A DNA stretch of 64,000 nt from Henricia sp. BOLD:AAB3569. Taxonomy: Eukaryota; Echinodermata; Asteroidea; Spinulosida; Echinasteridae. A program made the position numbers and the translations under genes. The stretch is taken from assembly GCA_037783545.1 (NCBI GenBank), contig JBBELK010000453.1, positions 558,001 through 622,000 on the forward strand, written 5' to 3'. A model generated the notes under the pieces. It was not told the DNA's origin and made no database searches. It was given only the letters and a program-made list of their open reading frames with translations. This document shows positions 4,465-58,300 of the stretch, piece after piece (position 1 is the first letter of the stretch; every line of letters begins with the position of its first letter).

Positions 4465-5645
4465 TGTGAGGATCATCGAACGCGCCACAGATTTCTGTAA
4501 GTTTGACCGTTAAACAGCCACAGCGCCCTCCAGCGGTGACTTCGGCACTTCTCATGTCGCCGTCGTCCCTGCTGTTGGTCTGTGCGTTTATCATCAAACT
4601 TTCAGGTAAAATTCTCTTTATTTAGAATCATTGCCTTGTTCTGGTTTGTATTATCAGGTTTGAGGAAAGATATAGCACATGTGGGCCACGTTTGAGTGTA
4701 TAGAATTAATGTCATTACGGCTAAAATGTGATATTTTGGCAACGTGATTTTCTGATCGATAGTGCCGTGGAGGCCCTCTGCGGCACGTCTAAGTTAGTCC
4801 ATGGCTTACGTTTTAGGCCCAGAGAGGGAGCTATATCGTTATTCTCGTGTAGGTGTTATTGCAGTAGGAAGGTTTTCGTCTGAAATCATTAGTAATTGAT
4901 CCCATGTTCCGTTTTGGGTTACCAAAGCCCCTCCTGCTGAATGATATAATTAAATATGCACACAGAAACATTTGTTAATCATACGTAAACATGGCAAACA
5001 CAATTGTGAGAATTCCTAAGTGTATGTTTTAAGTGCATGATCCAAATTACATGTATTGGATAAAAGTGAGAACATATTAACCGGACTTGAATTAATCAGA
5101 TTGTATTTCTAGTATACACATGTTGGCTGGAAAGAAATCTAATGATGGCTACATGTGAAATAATTACTCGCTGTCTTTATTTCAATGTACATGCTAAATT
5201 TAGACTATAAAATGACAATTAGGGTAAACTCGTTGTCATTGCTGTCGGTAAGTCCACCGGTTTAATTAATTCAATTAATTCCATAGGAAGACTGACAAGA
5301 GTAATTAATCTCCTTGCAGTTCCTGAATTACGTAACGGCCATAAGAACGCATGCATATATGTAGTTCCATTGCATTTTCATCATCTTGTGTGCACTCGTA
5401 AATATTTCCTAATTGTACTTACCATTTGTAACACCTGTAATATTAAGATACTTAACATGTATTTTATTTGTTTTTCTTTAAATCTGGGACTTCTCATGTC
5501 GCCGTCGTCCCTGCTGTTGGTCTGTGCGTTTATCATCAAACTTTCAGGCTGAGTAGAAAACTGAACCCTGGTGTCTGCTGTGTGTTTATTCGAGTCAGTT
5601 GTTAACACACAGCCCCCAGTTACATGTAACACCGCCCCCCTCACA
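4465..5645 (+). repeat. 5' LTR, 1181 bp, with an internal 60-bp direct repeat
   Basis: Starts TGTGAG and ends CTCACA. Inside it a 60-bp segment at 4547-4606 recurs at 5489-5548, a spacing of 942 bp. The sequence between the two copies is AT-rich, unlike the GC-richer outer parts. The same arrangement is present in the 3' LTR (12203-12262 and 13145-13204). Confidence 0.93.
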
Positions 5646-12120: not shown

Positions 12121-13301
12121 TGTGAGGATCATCGAACGCGCCACAGATTTCTGTAAGTTTGACCGTTAAACAGCCACAGCGCCCTCCAGCGGTGACTTCG
12201 GCACTTCTCATGTCGCCGTCGTCCCTGCTGTTGGTCTGTGCGTTTATCATCAAACTTTCAGGTAAAATTCTCTTTATTTAGAATCATTGCCTTGTTCTGG
12301 TTTGTATTATCAGGTTTGAGGAAAGATATAGCACATGTGGGCCACGTTTGAGTGTATAGAATTAATGTCATTACGGCTAAAATGTGATATTTTGGCAACG
12401 TGATTTTCTGATCGATAGTGCCGTGGAGGCCCTCTGCGGCACGTCTAAGTTAGTCCATGGCTTACGTTTTAGGCCCAGAGAGGGAGCTATATCGTTATTC
12501 TCGTGTAGGTGTTATTGCAGTAGGAAGGTTTTCGTCTGAAATCATTAGTAATTGATCCCATGTTCCGTTTTGGGTTACCAAAGCCCCTCCTGCTGAATGA
12601 TATAATTAAATATGCACACAGAAACATTTGTTAATCATACGTAAACATGGCAAACACAATTGTGAGAATTCCTAAGTGTATGTTTTAAGTGCATGATCCA
12701 AATTACATGTATTGGATAAAAGTGAGAACATATTAACCGGACTTGAATTAATCAGATTGTATTTCTAGTATACACATGTTGGCTGGAAAGAAATCTAATG
12801 ATGGCTACATGTGAAATAATTACTCGCTGTCTTTATTTCAATGTACATGCTAAATTTAGACTATAAAATGACAATTAGGGTAAACTCGTTGTCATTGCTG
12901 TCGGTAAGTCCACCGGTTTAATTAATTCAATTAATTCCATAGGAAGACTGACAAGAGTAATTAATCTCCTTGCAGTTCCTGAATTACGTAACGGCCATAA
13001 GAACGCATGCATATATGTAGTTCCATTGCATTTTCATCATCTTGTGTGCACTCGTAAATATTTCCTAATTGTACTTACCATTTGTAACACCTGTAATATT
13101 AAGATACTTAACATGTATTTTATTTGTTTTTCTTTAAATCTGGGACTTCTCATGTCGCCGTCGTCCCTGCTGTTGGTCTGTGCGTTTATCATCAAACTTT
13201 CAGGCTGAGTAGAAAACTGAACCCTGGTGTCTGCTGTGTGTTTATTCGAGTCAGTTGTTAACACACAGCCCCCAGTTACATGTAACACCGCCCCCCTCAC
13301 A
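12121..13301 (+). repeat. 3' LTR, 1181 bp
   Basis: Same length and ends as the 5' LTR and identical in every stretch compared by eye, including the internal 60-bp duplication. It is preceded by a purine-rich tract (AGCAAGGGAAGA) and followed by the CTTA target duplication. 11702-12120 between pol and this LTR is non-coding. Confidence 0.93.
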
Positions 13302-43300: not shown

Positions 43301-46300
43301 ACCTTCCAGTTTCAAAGGAGAACCTTACGCCTCTTCAACAGGCAAAGACAAACGAACTTAGCAAAGGATCCGATACACCTAGCATAAGTCAGCAGTACCA
43401 TTCTAAAGTTAAGATGAACTACCGCAGACTCCCGCAGGGTTTCAGACCATTCAAAACCCCAGCAAATTTTGATCCTTGTCCTAAACCCTCGCCTCAAAAG
43501 GATTCTAGGCTTCAGCCTGAACATTCAGACAATCGGTCAAAAATTTTACCACACAAAAATAATTCAGCTTTTTATTCCTCTGTGGATGAATCTAAACACT
43601 TGCCAACTATCCCAGAAACTGATGTTTTGACTGTCGTTCCGGAAGTCCCCATTGCAGAACGAACAACGGCAGCTGAGATTTCAGATTTTGAGGAAGAGTT
43701 CCTGAGTGCCAGCCAAGCACAGAGAGAGATCGAAGCCGCGGAGGAAACCGAGTCGGCTTATGCCTTCATGCAGGCTGCGGATGACGGCTTCTCCCAATTT
43801 GAGAACTTGCCTGAAAATAGTGTCAATCTTCCTAAAGGTATCGACAGCCCCAATCATCCTGATGATGACGATATAAAAACCACCCAAAAACCTAAAAACT
43901 TTGGGGACTTTGAATTCACAGGCGACAGGATTACTGAAAGAAAAGAAGCTTTGATTGCGAAACATTTGGGGATTGGCTCAAATCTGCCAAACCAAGTTGC
44001 ATCACAAGGTTCCGACGTGTTGGAAAAGGCGTTTGTTCAGTCGCAGGACTCGGTGAAAGACGGAAGAGAAACTGAAAATTCATCTGCACATCAGAACAAA
44101 CATTATCTGGAAGATGTTCCTAGAACCCCAGGCTTTAACGCATTAGGCGCTGACATCAGATTGAATGCAACAGCCCCTGGGTCCTCTCCCCAAATAACCA
44201 GTAAGCCATTCGTTGGCTTCTGCACTGCCAGTGGTCATAAAGTCACTGTGTCAAATGAAGCCTTGCGAAAAGCCAAAATGTTTTGGGATGCTGAGATAGA
44301 TATTGAAAAGACTACACCACAAGAGCCTACAGAAGGATGCAGGACATCAGAATTTTCACGCAGCAAGAAGAAAGATTTGTCCACTAACAAAGTTGATGGT
44401 GGATACCTCGGTAGGAAAGAAAGTAATGTGCTTAGAAAATCATCACTTAGTCCCGAGGAAGAAGCTTCTGAAGATGAAGTGCAGTTCAAAAAGGAGATGG
44501 GTAACTCTAAGCCGTCAGTTGAGACAGAATTGCATCAGGCTCTCAACGAACTAATGGAAATAGAAGAAAAGAAGGACAATTCTGTACTATCCATTGGGTT
44601 TCAAACTGCTGGAGGAAAACCGGTTTCGGTATCCGAAGAGGCACTTGCGAAAGCAAAATCTTTGTTTTTGGAAGTGGAAGAAAATCGGGGTGCAATTCAG
44701 TTTCCAGAGGCTCAACAGAATAAAAATACGGGAGAGGCCACTGTTGAGGAAAGAAAGAAGCCCTTCACTTCATTTCCTGTTGGATTTCAAACAGCAAGCG
44801 GAAGTAACGTAGATATTTCGGAGGAATCTCTGATGAACGCAAGACGTGTTTTAGAGAGTCCAGAGGGAAATACTAACAAGCAGCTCAGTGCTAGGAACAG
44901 ATTTGGTATGACGGAGGAAAAGCGTACAGTTCCGTGTGGTTTCACGACTGCAAGCGGAAACGTAAAAGTTTCGCGAGAGTCGTTGGAAAAAGCCAGGAAT
45001 CTGATTGAGGTCCCTTGTGAGAATCTTCCTACTGACGATAATAACTCGACGACTAGTGCATTCACAAAGGACCAGCCATTTGCAGGTTTCTCAACAGCTA
45101 GTGGGAACAAAGTCTCGGTATCTAAAGCTGCCCTGGAAAAAGCTAAAAGGCTTTTTATGGATCCTGATGATTCCTCAGTGCCTCCTGACGACAAAATTGA
45201 GAGATCGGAAAACCAAAGAAAACAAGTTAATAAAGAACAAGAAGGTACAATTTCTCTTGGTTTCCAAACTGCAAGTGGATCTTCTGTGTCGGTGTCAAAG
45301 TCGTCCTTAAAGAAAGCAAAACTGATGCTCGACAGCCCAGAAGAGTCCAAGACTACTAAATCTGTCGGATTTCAAACTGCCGGCGGAAGCAAGGTGGCAA
45401 TCTCTGCCGCATCTCTCGCAAATGCAAAGAAGTTCCTCGCTGAGGATGCTCTTAAAAAGAAAGAAATCAATCAATATCAACGAGTTAATAAAGAACAGGA
45501 AGGTCACTTTTCTCTTGGTTTCCAAACTGCAAGTGGATCTTCTGTGTCGGTGTCAAAGTCGTCCTTAAAGAAAGCAAAACTGATGCTCGACAGCCCAGAA
45601 GAGTCCAAGACTACTAAATCTGTCGGTTTTCAAACTGCTGGCGGAAGCAAAGTCGCAATCTCTGCTGCATCTCTTGCAAATGCAAAGGAGTTCCTCGCTG
45701 AGGATGCTCCTAAAAAGAAATCAATCAATCAATATCAACGAGTTAATAAAGAACAGGAAGGTAACATTTCTCTTGGTTTCCAAACTGCAAGTGGAACTTC
45801 TGTGTCGGTGTCAAAGTCGTCCTTAAAGAAAGCACAACTGATGCTAGACAGCCCAGAAGAGTCCAAGACTACTAAATCTGTCGGTTTTCAAACTGCTGGC
45901 GGAAGCAAAGTCGCAATCTCTGCTGCATCTCTTGCAAATGCAAAGGAGTTCCTCGCTGAGGATGCTCCTGAAAGAACAGAAAGAAATCAACACCAACGTG
46001 GGTTGGGCTTTTCAACAGCAAGCGGTTCCAAAGTTGAGGTTTCGCCGGCGGCGCTGCAAAGAGCCAAGAAATTGTTTGAAAACCTTGACGATGCTCCGGG
46101 GGAGTTGGTCAGCCTTCAGGGAAATGCCTCATGCCAAGAGTCCAACCTGGTGTCGGTCGGCTCGGACAGACGTGGTGCATCCAAGACACCAGGAGAGGAT
46201 CTCATAGATGCAGTTGTTCCAAACTTACGAGGAAACACAACTTTGTGCAAGAAACATACAGGTAAATTAGCACCGTTTGATTTCCACAAAATAGTTATAT

Positions 46301-52300: not shown

Positions 52301-55300
52301 CAACTTTGGCATTTTCTTGCACTTCGATGATGACTTGCAAAACGAACCTGACATACAAGATTTCTGGAATAAAAAAAACAGTCAGTTCTAGATAAAAATA
52401 AATCATATTACAGTGAAACTTGTCTATAGAGGCCACCCTCAGGACCGTAAAAAACTGGCCACTATAAAGAGGTGGCCTCTTTATAGAGGTTTCTAAAGCT
52501 TCATGGCTTTTGGGACCAAAGGTGGGTGGCCACTATATGCAGGTGGCCTATTTATCAAGGTGGCCTTAATAGCAGGTTACACTGTACTCAAATTATGCAG
52601 CATTTTCCTGTGCCTTTTTTGAGACGCCCTATCCGAGGCTGTGTTTCCCTTTGTGTCCTTTTTAGTGCATTGTTGGACACACCGGGAGTGGATTCCAAGT
52701 TGCTACCTGCTGGATGGGTCAGCAACCATTATCGCTGGATTGTTTGGAAGTTAGCTGCCATGGAGAGAGCATACCCACAACACCTAGCAGGGAGGTAGGT
52801 AACAAGACATCAACAATGTGCAGGGCTGTAGTCGAGTCCACACTTTCCGAGTCCGAGTCCTTGGTGTCCGAGTCCTTGGGTCCGAGTCCAGGTCCAGGAT
52901 ACTCCCGAGTTCTCAGCATGCCGAGTACAAGTCCTGAGTCCTTGTTTCAATCTTAAGTGTATTGCTGTCAAGTGATCTGGCAGCTTGTGAGTTTGCTTTT
53001 GGCCAAGTTTTAGGAGGTAAAATATATTTTGAATGCTTAAAATCAATTCAAGTGGTTAAATTAGTTTTTAAAATTTCATTTCACATGGTTGAAATCATAA
53101 TTTATAAAAGACGCTTGAAATAATTCCCGCCACTCATAATAATATACTTGTTGTAGGCTGAAATGTATCTTATTGCAAATGTTTTTTTTTTATCCGGTGG
53201 ACTCGGATGGACTCGGCCCAAATCGCCAAATCCTTACCGTCCGAGTCCTGACTGGCCGAGTCCTAGTTTTTGAGTCGTACAATGCTGTCCATGTGTACTA
53301 CAAACTCTCGGGCTCCGATCCGACTCTCAGAGAAAAGTGCACATGTAAATTGTTATGTCATTAGTGCATGTACATAGGCCATCCCATGAAAACAGGACAC
53401 AGTGTCCCACTTTAACATCATGACACAACATTTTTTTATAAGTACCGGGCCTCAGAGAACCAGTACCCTCGGTATATAAACATTATATGGCCACGTCAAT
53501 AGGCCTTGGTTCGGTGAAATGATGTATCTAAGTCTGTTTTCTGACAGGTTTTTGACACCTGACTGGGTACTCATGCAGTTAAAGTATAGATATGACAGGG
53601 AAATTGACCATGCCCAGCGCCCTGCCCTCCGAAAGATCCTAGAACGAGATGACGTCCCGTCCAGAAGGATTGTCCTGTGTGTGGCTGGTATCCAGTATGC
53701 CGAGACCAATGCTGGAGTAATGGTGAATCCAGAGGGTACCGGTCAAAAAGACAAGGATAAGGTACTTATGTTAGTTGGTTGGGAAAACCATGACAAAGTC
53801 TTTAAAATAACTAAACTTGGGATGAGCGAAAAATCATATGGGGATTCAAACATGAGACCTCTGACTCACCGGGAAGATACTTTATTACTGTTATAGGCAG
53901 AGTGATATAATCCCTCAGGTTTTCCTTGGTAGAGCATCTGCGGTATTAAGTCGGAGGTTTCGGATTTGAATCCAGGTAATAGAAAACACAGCTACTTTTT
54001 GGCCTTGTAGGTTATGCGCTATGAAATATTAAAGCCACAGGCTCGTCAGCAATGCACGCGCGCCAGATTCATGCCACGAAATACGCAGCTCCATAGCAAA
54101 GGCATAGAGCTGCGTATTTCATGCCCGATTGCCTTAGACTACGGATATCAGCCAACTGCACACACCGTACCCGCTATGATGCCCGACTGGGACTCCAACC
54201 CTGCCCTCAACCCTTCCCCCTCAGCCTGGCCTCTCTGTACCCTGAGGGTGGGACTGTTGTCTGTGTGTGGATGTGGTCATCATTAGGATTTACCCCATAC
54301 GCAGCTCCATAGCAAAGGCATGGAGCTGCGTATTCCATGGCAGGGATTTGGCGCACGCGCATTGCTGACGAGCCTGCGCCTTTAATTAATGTGTAAATAT
54401 CTGTTTTTCTGTCTTATTAAGGCCCCAAGCCCTCCAGTTCCCACCCTCGAGTTGACCGACGGTTGGTATTCTGTAAAAACAATCGTGGATAAACCCTTAG
54501 CAGGGCTCATAAAAGCAGGCAAGATATACATCGGTCAGAAGCTGTGCATCTGTGGAGCGGAGCTGGTGGGGTCGCAAGATGCCTGCTCACCCCTAGAAGT
54601 AAGGCTCCTCAACTCTCTTCTGAATAAACCCTAATCATCTTCTGAATTAACCATAATCATCTTCTGAATTAACCATAATCGTCTTCTGAATTTACCCTAA
54701 TTAACTCTAAGGGTTAAAGTGGCTGAGTGGTTTAGGTAATTGACTCTCAACCCCTGGGTGAAATTTTGACGTTGCAGGTTCATTACCCGGCTGTGGTACA
54801 TGTGCCCTTGAGCAAGGCACTTAACCACAATTGTTCCATCCTTTGATCTCTCCAGACATGCTCCAATCGTCTTATACAATGAACCAGAGAAATGAAATAG
54901 CCCAATATGGGTTTAGAAAACAATCCCATCAATTTCTAAACAACAGGACCAGCATGAAATTCACGTTAATTTTGACCCCTGAAGTAGCTATCACAGTTAG
55001 ATAAGATCCACTCATCTACTTAGCCATGATGAATTTTTTTATTCTCAGGTTCCCGATTGCCTAAGACTACGGATATCAGCCAACTGCACTCGCCGTGCCT
55101 GCTATAATGCCCGACTGGGACTCCAACCCTGCCCTCAACCCTTCCCCCTCAGCCTGGCCTCTCTGTACCCCGAGGGTGGGACTGCTGGCTGTGTGGATGT
55201 GGTCATCATCAGGACTTACCCCATGCAGGTAGTCACAAACACCCGGCTCAAATCCAAAGAATGCTCCATTTAATGTTCCGAATTTAAAGAAGATTTCTGT

Positions 55301-58300
55301 TTTTTTGTGAAGGAAGGTATACGTAATTTAGCTTGCGTCAGGGAAAATGAATGTTCTGCCTTTTAGGTAGACACGCACACACCCAGCTTAAATTCAAAGA
55401 ATGCTCCACCGAATTTATGTTTTTTGTTTTTTTGTTCATTCCAGATTGTATGTTTCGTCTTTTTAGTTTTTTTAACCAACGGCCTCGTTTTTTTCTTTTC
55501 TTATGAAAAGACCACCCTATTATTGACTGATTCAGTAATGTCACGAAACAGACTTGCGTAAGTGTAGTTGCCAAGCGCATAACACTTCATACTATGTGGT
55601 TCTGACTGTGTACTTGGATTACATACCGAGCGTGGACTAGAGAAAAGATGTCCACAGATTGTGGGAAAAGGTGACGGATTGTGGACTAGCATACGTCCAC
55701 AGTCGAGGGTTAGCTTCTGGGTGGGTGTTTAGTTTATGTTAGGTAACAGTTTAGAAGAGAGCTGGGACCGATTTCATGGCGCTGTTTAGCACAAAAATTT
55801 GTTAGCACAGAATTTGTTTACTTTGTAAAATGGGTTACCATCCAAAACTACATCAAATTGTGATTTTACAAACAGTAGCGAAATATTAGTAAATATTCAT
55901 CACATATGATTTTGGCTCTCAACCCATTTTTGCAATATAAAGCAAATAAGTTTGTGCCAGGCAATTTTTTGTCTAAACAACGCCATGAATCTGGCTCCTT
56001 TTCTGATTTTGGTGAATAAAATTGTATTTTGATGAAAAAAAAGTTTCGAAGAAATTGTGTAACTTTTGCAATGTCGTTTTTTTTTGTTCAGTTCATGGAG
56101 AAACGAAGTGAGGGAGGCTGCACCTTTAGGGGGCAAAGAGCTGAGGAGAAGGAGGCGGGGCGATTTGCACAGGAGAAACAAAAACAGATGGAGAGATTGT
56201 ATGCTAAGATACAGGAGGAATATCAGGAGAAGGAAAACAAGAAAGGTAGCAGTAAATGTCTAAATAAGTTAGTTTGTGTGTTGGAGAATGTGTTTTCTGG
56301 TTTTGACAATTGGTTGTTAACCAAAGTGAGGTGGGGCTGATTTCACAAAGCGCTAAGACGCGTCTTAGGAAGGGTCAGTCTTATCTTGGGACGTTGGTAT
56401 TGGAATTAGGATGCATTGAGCTCGTCTTAACTTTTGTGAAATCGGCCCCAGCTCTGGAGAAATAAGTCTTCGGGGGACATGTGCCCCCTCCCCAGGCCCT
56501 AATCCCCAATGATGCCACTGCTGGGGAGGGGGAAACACTGCCAGATTAAAAAAAATAAAAAGCAGCCCCCAGCAAATAAATTTTTGCGAGCATTAGTTAA
56601 TCAACGAAAATAAAGAGCCATGCATTCATACTAGGAAATCCCTTCGATAAATCCTTGTCGAATGAAGCGATTTTCCTAATGAGAACAGCATCTTATTCAT
56701 TGCCATTTGTACCTCTGTCATCAGTGAACTCAAGCCGACGGTCGTCCTCGGGCCAGAAGCTAACAGCCAAACATGTTGCCAATCTTCAGACTGGACAGGA
56801 ACTGTATGAAGCACTCACCGATGCCATGGACCCAGGGGCTCTCCAGGTTAGTACGATTGACTGATTTGTCCTTTTGGGAATTGTGTAACTTGTGTGAATT
56901 TCTCAGCTAACACTGTGTAGTTTGTGTTTAGTGAATGGGTTGTGAATGTCTCATTCTAGCTCGGCTAGAAGACTACCTAGTATAAGACGTCTGCCTAGTA
57001 TGCAGGAGGTTGTGGGTTCGAGTCCCACCCAACCACGCTGTGAGGTTTTTGTAATAGTGTCTTGGCGAAGCACTGAGTATACAGTGCTAAACAAGTTTAA
57101 TACAACGGGTTGGGCAAAACAAAAATCTTAGCTCAGCTACTTGAGTCAATATTCATTTTAGAAAGAAAAGGGTCGCTTTGAACCATCAGTCCTTAGTCCT
57201 CAATGAAGGTACTCTGGATTTCTCGGTGTCATAAGAAAGAGGACGTGGTGGTGTAATGGATAGTGGTTGCTGTTTTCCAAAATCCTTAGTAATTACCGAG
57301 TAATCAGCATTATAATCTAGGTTTCCTTTATTCTTTGACAAGCTTGTATGTTAAGATTTGGGCATACATTTACACTTTTCTGCTGTGGTATTCATTAAAG
57401 TTATAACTCTTATGTTTCTAGAAAAATATCGAGGTGTCACACCCAAAATGCTGTTTTGTATTTGTGATCTGTTGTAGGTATTACTGTCTGAGAGACAAAT
57501 GGCATTGTTGGGAGACTACCAGCGCTGTCTGCATGAAAAGCAACAGACTGATTTACAGGGCCATTTCAGACGAGCCATGGAAGAGAAAGATCGGGTATGC
57601 AAAGTTTATTGTTTAAAGGCCCATTGTATCATTTGCAATGACCAGAAATTTTACTTCATGAGTTGACAAGTTTTAAATCAATACACCAATCTGAGAGTCG
57701 AGGACCTGTTCTCTGTACGTCTGCCATAACTGGGGGCCATCCAGTGCCACGAACTGTACGTTACATTATGTTGTCACTTCGAACAATTTGCGCATTCTTT
57801 GTTAAAGTCTGTGCACACAAGGGGGCACATTGTACACTATTCAATTTTAACAACAACACGTGCAGGGAAGGAGTCCTTAGTTACTGGATTCGTGTTTAAG
57901 TTTCAAAATGTCACACTTACTGGAAGATTGCACTAGTTTATTGAATCGTTCTCATGTTTTGAGTAATATGAACAGATAAAGGTGGTGTTCGATTCACGAG
58001 GCCATATACTGTTCATATGCTGAGAGAAATCATTCTCTAAAGCCCAGTATTTATTTTTAAAAATGGGGGAGCGTTCAATAGCGCAATACGTATGCATACC
58101 GACAATACCTTCAACGGTGAAGGTATAGGAAAATACCCAATACCGGCGTACGTATTATGCTATTGAATGCGCCCCAGTAGTGTCACGACGTAGCGGGGAC
58201 ACATTTTCATGGAATGACCCATATCATGGTGCTTCACGTACTTTTAATAGGATTATTTTTAACCTTTTCAACTCCTTGTGGAGTATACAGCCTCGGCTGC

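Follow-up and report, generated by a model that had tools for sequence, protein, structure and literature searches.

A BRCA2 exon fragment inside a Kolobok-like palindromic MITE of Henricia sp., a probable single-copy Pack-TIR formed by local DNA copying

Host DNA within inverted-repeat transposons

It has been reported that 100 animal genomes hold 370 Pack-TIRs, at a frequency of about 2 per 10,000 TIR elements (Tan et al. 2021, PMC8277862). Among 281 unique Pack-TIRs, 56.9% lie less than 15 kb from their source, most of these less than 5 kb; microhomology, with a median of 2 bp, is found at one breakpoint at least in 67.6% of Pack-TIRs, the breakpoints lean toward the middle of the element, and exon sequence is contained in 13.4%, which is 3.2 times background. 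In single-copy Pack-TIRs, the captured size has a median of 224 bp, and no preference for high GC is reported (PMC8277862). An earlier note on the DNA studied here had called such capture Pack-MITE-like and little described in animals; with 370 cases on record this statement is outdated, and the term 'pack-mite' itself gave no match in the literature search.

The window, that is, the whole stretch of 64,000 nt analysed here, comes from Henricia sp. BOLD:AAB3569 (GCA_037783545.1, contig JBBELK010000453.1, positions 558,001–622,000 of the forward strand), and all coordinates refer to it unless a contig is named. It contains a piece of a BRCA2 exon lodged in an inverted-repeat element within an intron of the same gene. 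This kind of event is already known in animals, and as judged from sequence the case fits a single-copy Pack-TIR seated in a Kolobok-like palindromic MITE. Pack-TIRs are recognised by 100–5000 bp lying between parts of one element, each part reaching at least 10 bp of the element's end; here 173–175 bp lie between family positions 1–95 and 53–141. They have a unique parent with at least 90% identity and a length ratio of 80–120%; here identity extends to 162 of 173 aligned bases, and copy and parent measure 175 and 173 bases. Their source is in cis, typically less than 5 kb away and mostly with microhomology; here it lies at 754 bp, with AT shared at the right junction and nothing at the left (PMC8277862). 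As in the single-copy Pack-TIRs of animals, which are ascribed to transposition-independent gap filling, host DNA stands between two parts of one TIR element, near its source, in one copy, with short microhomology and mid-element breakpoints, and the captured size is of the same order (PMC8277862). Unlike the Pack-TIRs of that paper, in whose main text the words MITE and Kolobok are absent, the host element is a Kolobok-like palindromic MITE; and unlike those Pack-TIRs, whose centre is intact or lost, the centre of the present element is duplicated, a duplication not mentioned in sections 7, 8, 10, 12 and 14 of the paper. Since the parent has many exons and the intronless copy spans no intron, the intronless-copy filter of PMC8277862 could have discarded this case. 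The same definition asks for a parent with no TE inside 100 bp; here, a local repeat touches 55227–55308.

Two further systems offer themselves for comparison. Plant Pack-MULEs and Pack-TYPE elements (PMC8277862, PMC8903248) likewise carry host coding DNA between the inverted repeats of a non-autonomous DNA transposon, but many of them are multicopy and have moved, whereas the searches made here gave no hint that the filled element has moved. Similarly, the templated insertions produced by MMBIR and template switching (PMC8421209, PMC7954356, PMC11724301) are short copies of nearby DNA with little or no microhomology; unlike them, the present event is tied to a palindromic transposon, and its divergence of about 6% marks it as old.

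The BRCA2 locus, the MITE and the exon copy

The source exon (55049–55228, forward strand, 180 bases, OB1 domain) is predicted from its open frame, from the AG before and the GT after it, and from alignment to solved BRCA2 chains; another predicted exon (54422–54598, forward strand) lies between it and the element. Together with the two exons preceding it, the source exon encodes a product with matches to Pfam BRCA-2_OB1 (E 1e-40) and to the solved BRCA2 chains 1iyj, 1mje and 1miu (E 6.4e-59 to 3.6e-58). The G+C content of the source exon is 59%, compared with 38–39% in the flanks. The identity of the gene as BRCA2 has no special meaning for the mechanism.

The element at 54033–54381 is flanked by TTAA at 54029–54032 on the left and 54382–54385 on the right, just as the earlier note had proposed. 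Its left piece (54033–54123, forward strand) comprises the left arm and a first core and corresponds to family positions 1–95 including the TTAA; its right piece (54297–54381, forward strand) comprises a second core and the right arm and runs from family position 53 to the right TTAA. None of 100 shuffles folds as well as the strand of the element (z -9.9). A 29-base string from the family core has 4013 exact matches in the genome (2059 forward, 1954 reverse; reversed control 0), and the core with one variant base has a further 224; 53 distinct complete copies were collected, the commonest length being 141 bases. The ends in the copies read are TTAA, AG...CT, TTAA. Elements of the Kolobok superfamily make TTAA duplications and have 5'-RR...YY-3' ends, unlike piggyBac (PMC9587614), and judged from its TTAA target sites and AG...CT ends the family fits this superfamily.

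The copy lies at 54124–54298 on the forward strand and corresponds to bases 55052–55224, in the same orientation as the source, which lies 754 bp downstream; the spacing of the exon copies is 928. Besides 11 differing bases, the copy carries a 2-base insertion that breaks the reading frame. The exon pair has an E value of 4.8e-68 (BLAST within the window), and this value and the folding of the element beyond 100 of 100 shuffles mean that neither is due to chance. The first 3 and last 4 bases of the exon are missing from the copy, whose final AT is common to exon and element, and homology ends at both element junctions, so the copy holds no intron sequence. The alignment therefore confirms that a 175-base copy starts 3 bases inside the exon, ends 4 bases before its end and does not run into the intron on either side; the capture of an exon piece by a TTAA-flanked inverted-repeat element, as first proposed, is borne out, and the observation as such is confirmed. 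There is no AG ahead of the copy and no GT behind it, which means that the splice sites of the source were not copied; together with the frameshift, this rules out the copy as a usable alternative exon. In the part before the indel, 3 synonymous and 6 amino-acid changes separate the copy from its source, a pattern such as would fit a copy without function. One codon deserves separate mention: the source has Cys at 55100–55102 where the copy has Arg at 54172–54174, and as the solved BRCA2 chains also have Arg, the source codon, rather than the copy, may have changed since.

In the whole genome (740.7 Mb), a protein search with the three exons gave four matches, namely the three exons and the copy (4 of 4 candidates scored). 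In a DNA search with the whole element, no further place with the exon part appeared among the best 40 of 4795 candidates, where only the copy and its source contained it. As regards age, the left element piece differs from the family majority at 6 of 95 bases and the right piece at 6 of 89, while family copies differ from it by a median of 5.0% (range 1.4–8.2%). On these figures, the capture would be roughly as old as the insertion of the element.

The exon-only boundaries had also been taken as a hint of an RNA (cDNA) template. On such a reading, the piece would have been filled in or retro-inserted from a spliced message or from a single-exon RNA (e.g., circular), and the 43-base repeat would be its target duplication. 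The ends of the copy, 3 and 4 bases inside one exon, agree with such an origin, as do retroelement-end-like fillers seen by eye in other copies of the MITE. The hint is not supported by the remaining evidence: a single exon is touched and hence no intron is lost, no retrocopy of the three tested exons exists elsewhere in the genome, and the source is merely 754 bp away. The mark of a processed copy is the loss of an intron that separated two exons, or else a tail of poly(A) or repeats, and the present copy is part of one exon and has no tail. A spliced message would bring neighbouring exons, and a circular RNA should usually yield a permuted copy; a one-exon cDNA that was shortened at either end would depend on no less of a twofold coincidence than a copy made from DNA. 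Only an RNA of exon 55049–55228 alone would predict the ends of the copy. An RNA template is considered very unlikely, and just as little weight is given to its particular form in which a single-exon RNA (circular RNA or excised exon) was filled in by RNA-templated repair; if true, a nearly exon-exact copy of part of a DNA-repair gene would have entered a hairpin MITE in one of that gene's own introns.

The doubled core and a proposed route of the copying strand

The exon piece is flanked by two direct repeats, a first copy of the hairpin core at 54081–54123 and a second at 54297–54339, both on the forward strand and both corresponding to family positions 53–95; they are 95% identical and 43 bp long, so that the direct repeats described in the earlier note are present, and only their length, given there as 41 bp, needs correction. 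The element thus reads family positions 1–95, exon piece, positions 53–141, and the duplicated positions 53–95 of 141 lie around the centre of the palindrome. When the sequence is folded as a single DNA strand, each core forms a separate hairpin within the paired arms (equalled by 0 of 100 shuffles); of the two junctions, the left one lies a few bases beyond the first hairpin and the right one at the base of the second. At the right junction, AT is common to exon and element; at the left junction, zero bases are shared in the present sequence. Among the 53 distinct complete copies, 44 have one core, 9 have none at the threshold used and none has two, although a copy was counted only if its alignment to the 141-base reference was unbroken, a condition that works against double-core copies. 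Doubled hairpins are not, then, the general state of the family, and the doubled core goes with the insertion, as had been suggested when the repeats were read as a duplication made with the exon piece.

The bases within the cores bear on where the second core came from. Position 93 is A in both cores of the window element and in 4 of 53 family copies, and position 78 is A in the left core only and in 9 of 53 copies, these frequencies being biased in that many of the 53 were retrieved as top hits of the window element. The shared A at position 93 favours one core duplicated in place, and this also speaks for tying the repeats to the insertion; the A at position 78 could be a later change or a pointer to two sources. 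Two sources would mean that two separate MITEs once flanked an old exon copy and were each trimmed by deletion, in line with the occurrence of the position-78 A in the left core and not in the right (224 exact cores genome-wide carry it, 4013 do not). Against this stand the uncommon position-93 base common to both cores, the fact that the two pieces complement each other into one element with a single TTAA at each end, and the need for two deletions both ending at the exon piece; this origin is the least probable of those considered, and in-place duplication of the core is supported.

The best explanation, to which a probability of about 80% is assigned, is a single-copy Pack-TIR produced by local DNA-templated gap filling in the MITE after its insertion. 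A Kolobok-like palindromic MITE would first have inserted at a TTAA in the BRCA2 intron. Later, and in situ, DNA synthesis over the hairpin core would have been interrupted (by a stalled fork or in break repair); the growing strand would have left the element just beyond the core, copied 173 exon bases about 710 bases further on in the still unfilled locus, re-entered at the base of the same core via the 2-base AT match and continued through the right arm. Re-entry at the base of the core would have caused the core to be copied twice and left an exon fragment without splice sites. With template switching of this kind, the short distance to the source, its orientation, the second core, the match of 2 bases and the absence of other copies are all explained. 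What is observed directly is the anatomy, a source close by, the single 2-base microhomology and the fact that no second copy was found; we infer the order of events, the hairpin as cause and the enzymes. Counted in favour of template switching are the source at 754 bp, the single-core norm of the family, the shared A at position 93, the duplication around the palindrome centre, the AT junction, the separate hairpin of each core, the lack of another site with the exon part, the features of single-copy Pack-TIRs (PMC8277862), and two rearranged family members described below, namely the mirror arrangement on C190 and the tandem units on C60.

Several points count against template switching. No base is shared at the left junction, a clear local source was found in only 1 of the 12 filled elements whose flanks were read to about 3 kb either way, and both ends of the copy lie within 4 bases of the exon ends, which the model does not predict. 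In a crude simulation of local copying, both ends fell within 4 bases of exon ends in 1.7e-4 of copies and 4.0% of copies lay wholly inside an exon, values that depend on assumed start and length distributions and on a question framed after the case had been seen. A likeness of the element to splice-site regions was tried as a cause of the exon-exact ends, and it is weak, as 14% and 12% of positions do as well. The near-exact exon fit stays unusual, and neither DNA nor spliced RNA explains it well.

The same end product could be reached in two DNA steps, by a tandem duplication whose unit of about 928 bases reached from the core almost to the end of the source exon, and a subsequent deletion in the first unit that took the right arm together with one exon and two introns; such a deletion may have been selected for, as it removed a harmful duplicated exon and the splice acceptor. 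The exon-copy spacing of 928 is exactly the unit so predicted, the tandem units on C60 re-enter the MITE at nearly the same point, and the C190 element can be read in the same way. Nevertheless, two events are required, the intermediate has left no trace, and the deletion must stop 3 bases inside the exon. This two-step route, identical in its outcome to template switching, is regarded as unlikely.

If template switching is correct, the locus illustrates cleanly how a short palindromic transposon can behave as a fragile spot and take up a piece of its own host gene through local DNA copying, and the doubled hairpin core marks the exit and return points of the copying strand, the C190 element showing the mirror-image design. 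In addition, a family with thousands of members could be used to gauge how often palindromic MITEs cause small duplications and whether captures prefer exons.

Other rearranged family members and duplications in the window

Pattern searches for other filled elements used exact matches only, so that all the following counts are lower bounds. Two cores lie 153–213 bases apart in at least 24 places genome-wide, the window included, and 11–71 bases apart in at least 7; two cores in direct order occur in at least 4 places at a spacing of 93–153 and in at least 3 at 215–275; and over-spaced element ends occur in at least 22 places (126–186), at least 29 (188–248) and at least 26 (250–310). In 4 other loci of the 153–213 set that were read closely, no host exon was found captured between whole cores. 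From the 51 places with end spacings of 126–186 and 188–248, 20 were read, being picked by eye for foreign filler. The 12 filled elements that were read together with their surroundings comprise 6 from these 20 and 6 from the 26 places of the 250–310 class; a local source for the filler was clear in 1 (on C190), a 31-base match was seen in 1 (L076) and none in 10, the reach of this test being about 3 kb on each side and its power weak for two fillers of 26–27 bases.

In the C190 element (L078), the filler is about 70 bases long, 48 of which are identical to sequence 128 bases upstream, and it is bordered on either side by a copy of one 21-base piece of MITE arm, the two copies being 90% alike; this is the mirror image of the window arrangement, with the source on the left. 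Meanwhile, the C60 element (L074, C60:715000–717000) contains at 810–1290 tandem units of 158 bases made up of part of the MITE and its flank, which re-enter the MITE near the same hairpin base, a small satellite seeded at a palindromic MITE.

Other candidates were set aside. The C375 element (L043, with a near-copy, L073) has two cores around a 134-bp filler, and the filler has other matches on the same contig; it was first taken as a second capture and then rejected, since comparison with L071 and L072 showed the filler to be normal flanking sequence of a truncated MITE that lies in a complex local duplication. The fillers of L062 and L067 are dispersed repeats (judged on the best 40 of 1608 candidates); by eye, those of L051, L052, L057, L059 and L064–L066 look like nested foldback elements, and those of L055, L060, L063 and L068–L070 look like retroelement ends. 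The matches on C8/C111 (L030, L032), C158 (L036) and C108 (L045) are apparently partial or chance core matches and not whole elements. Foldback filler of one kind (ends CACTATGAGCAA...) sits close to the hairpin centre in L051, L052 and L057, as though a single nested element had a preference for that place. The filled elements at C69:546824–547122 and C293:228450–228748, on different contigs, have the same filler start and the same or nearly the same length, and those at C24:62827, C515:1022437 and C936:610743 likewise share a filler start and the same or nearly the same length across contigs; such same-start fillers would be multicopy filled elements, nested elements or duplicated regions.

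Within the window, four further local direct duplications were seen, at 45221–45482/45737–45998, 10964–11099/11234–11369, 34539–34605/34941–35004 and 60692–60785/61016–61105; they are 67–262 bases long and 82–93% alike, with 135–336 bases between the copies, and they indicate that local duplication on this small scale is no rarity in the window. In addition, a stretch of 1181 bases occurs twice with 100% identity (4465–5645 and 12121–13301), 6.5 kb apart, and represents a very recent duplication or else a repeat or assembly effect.
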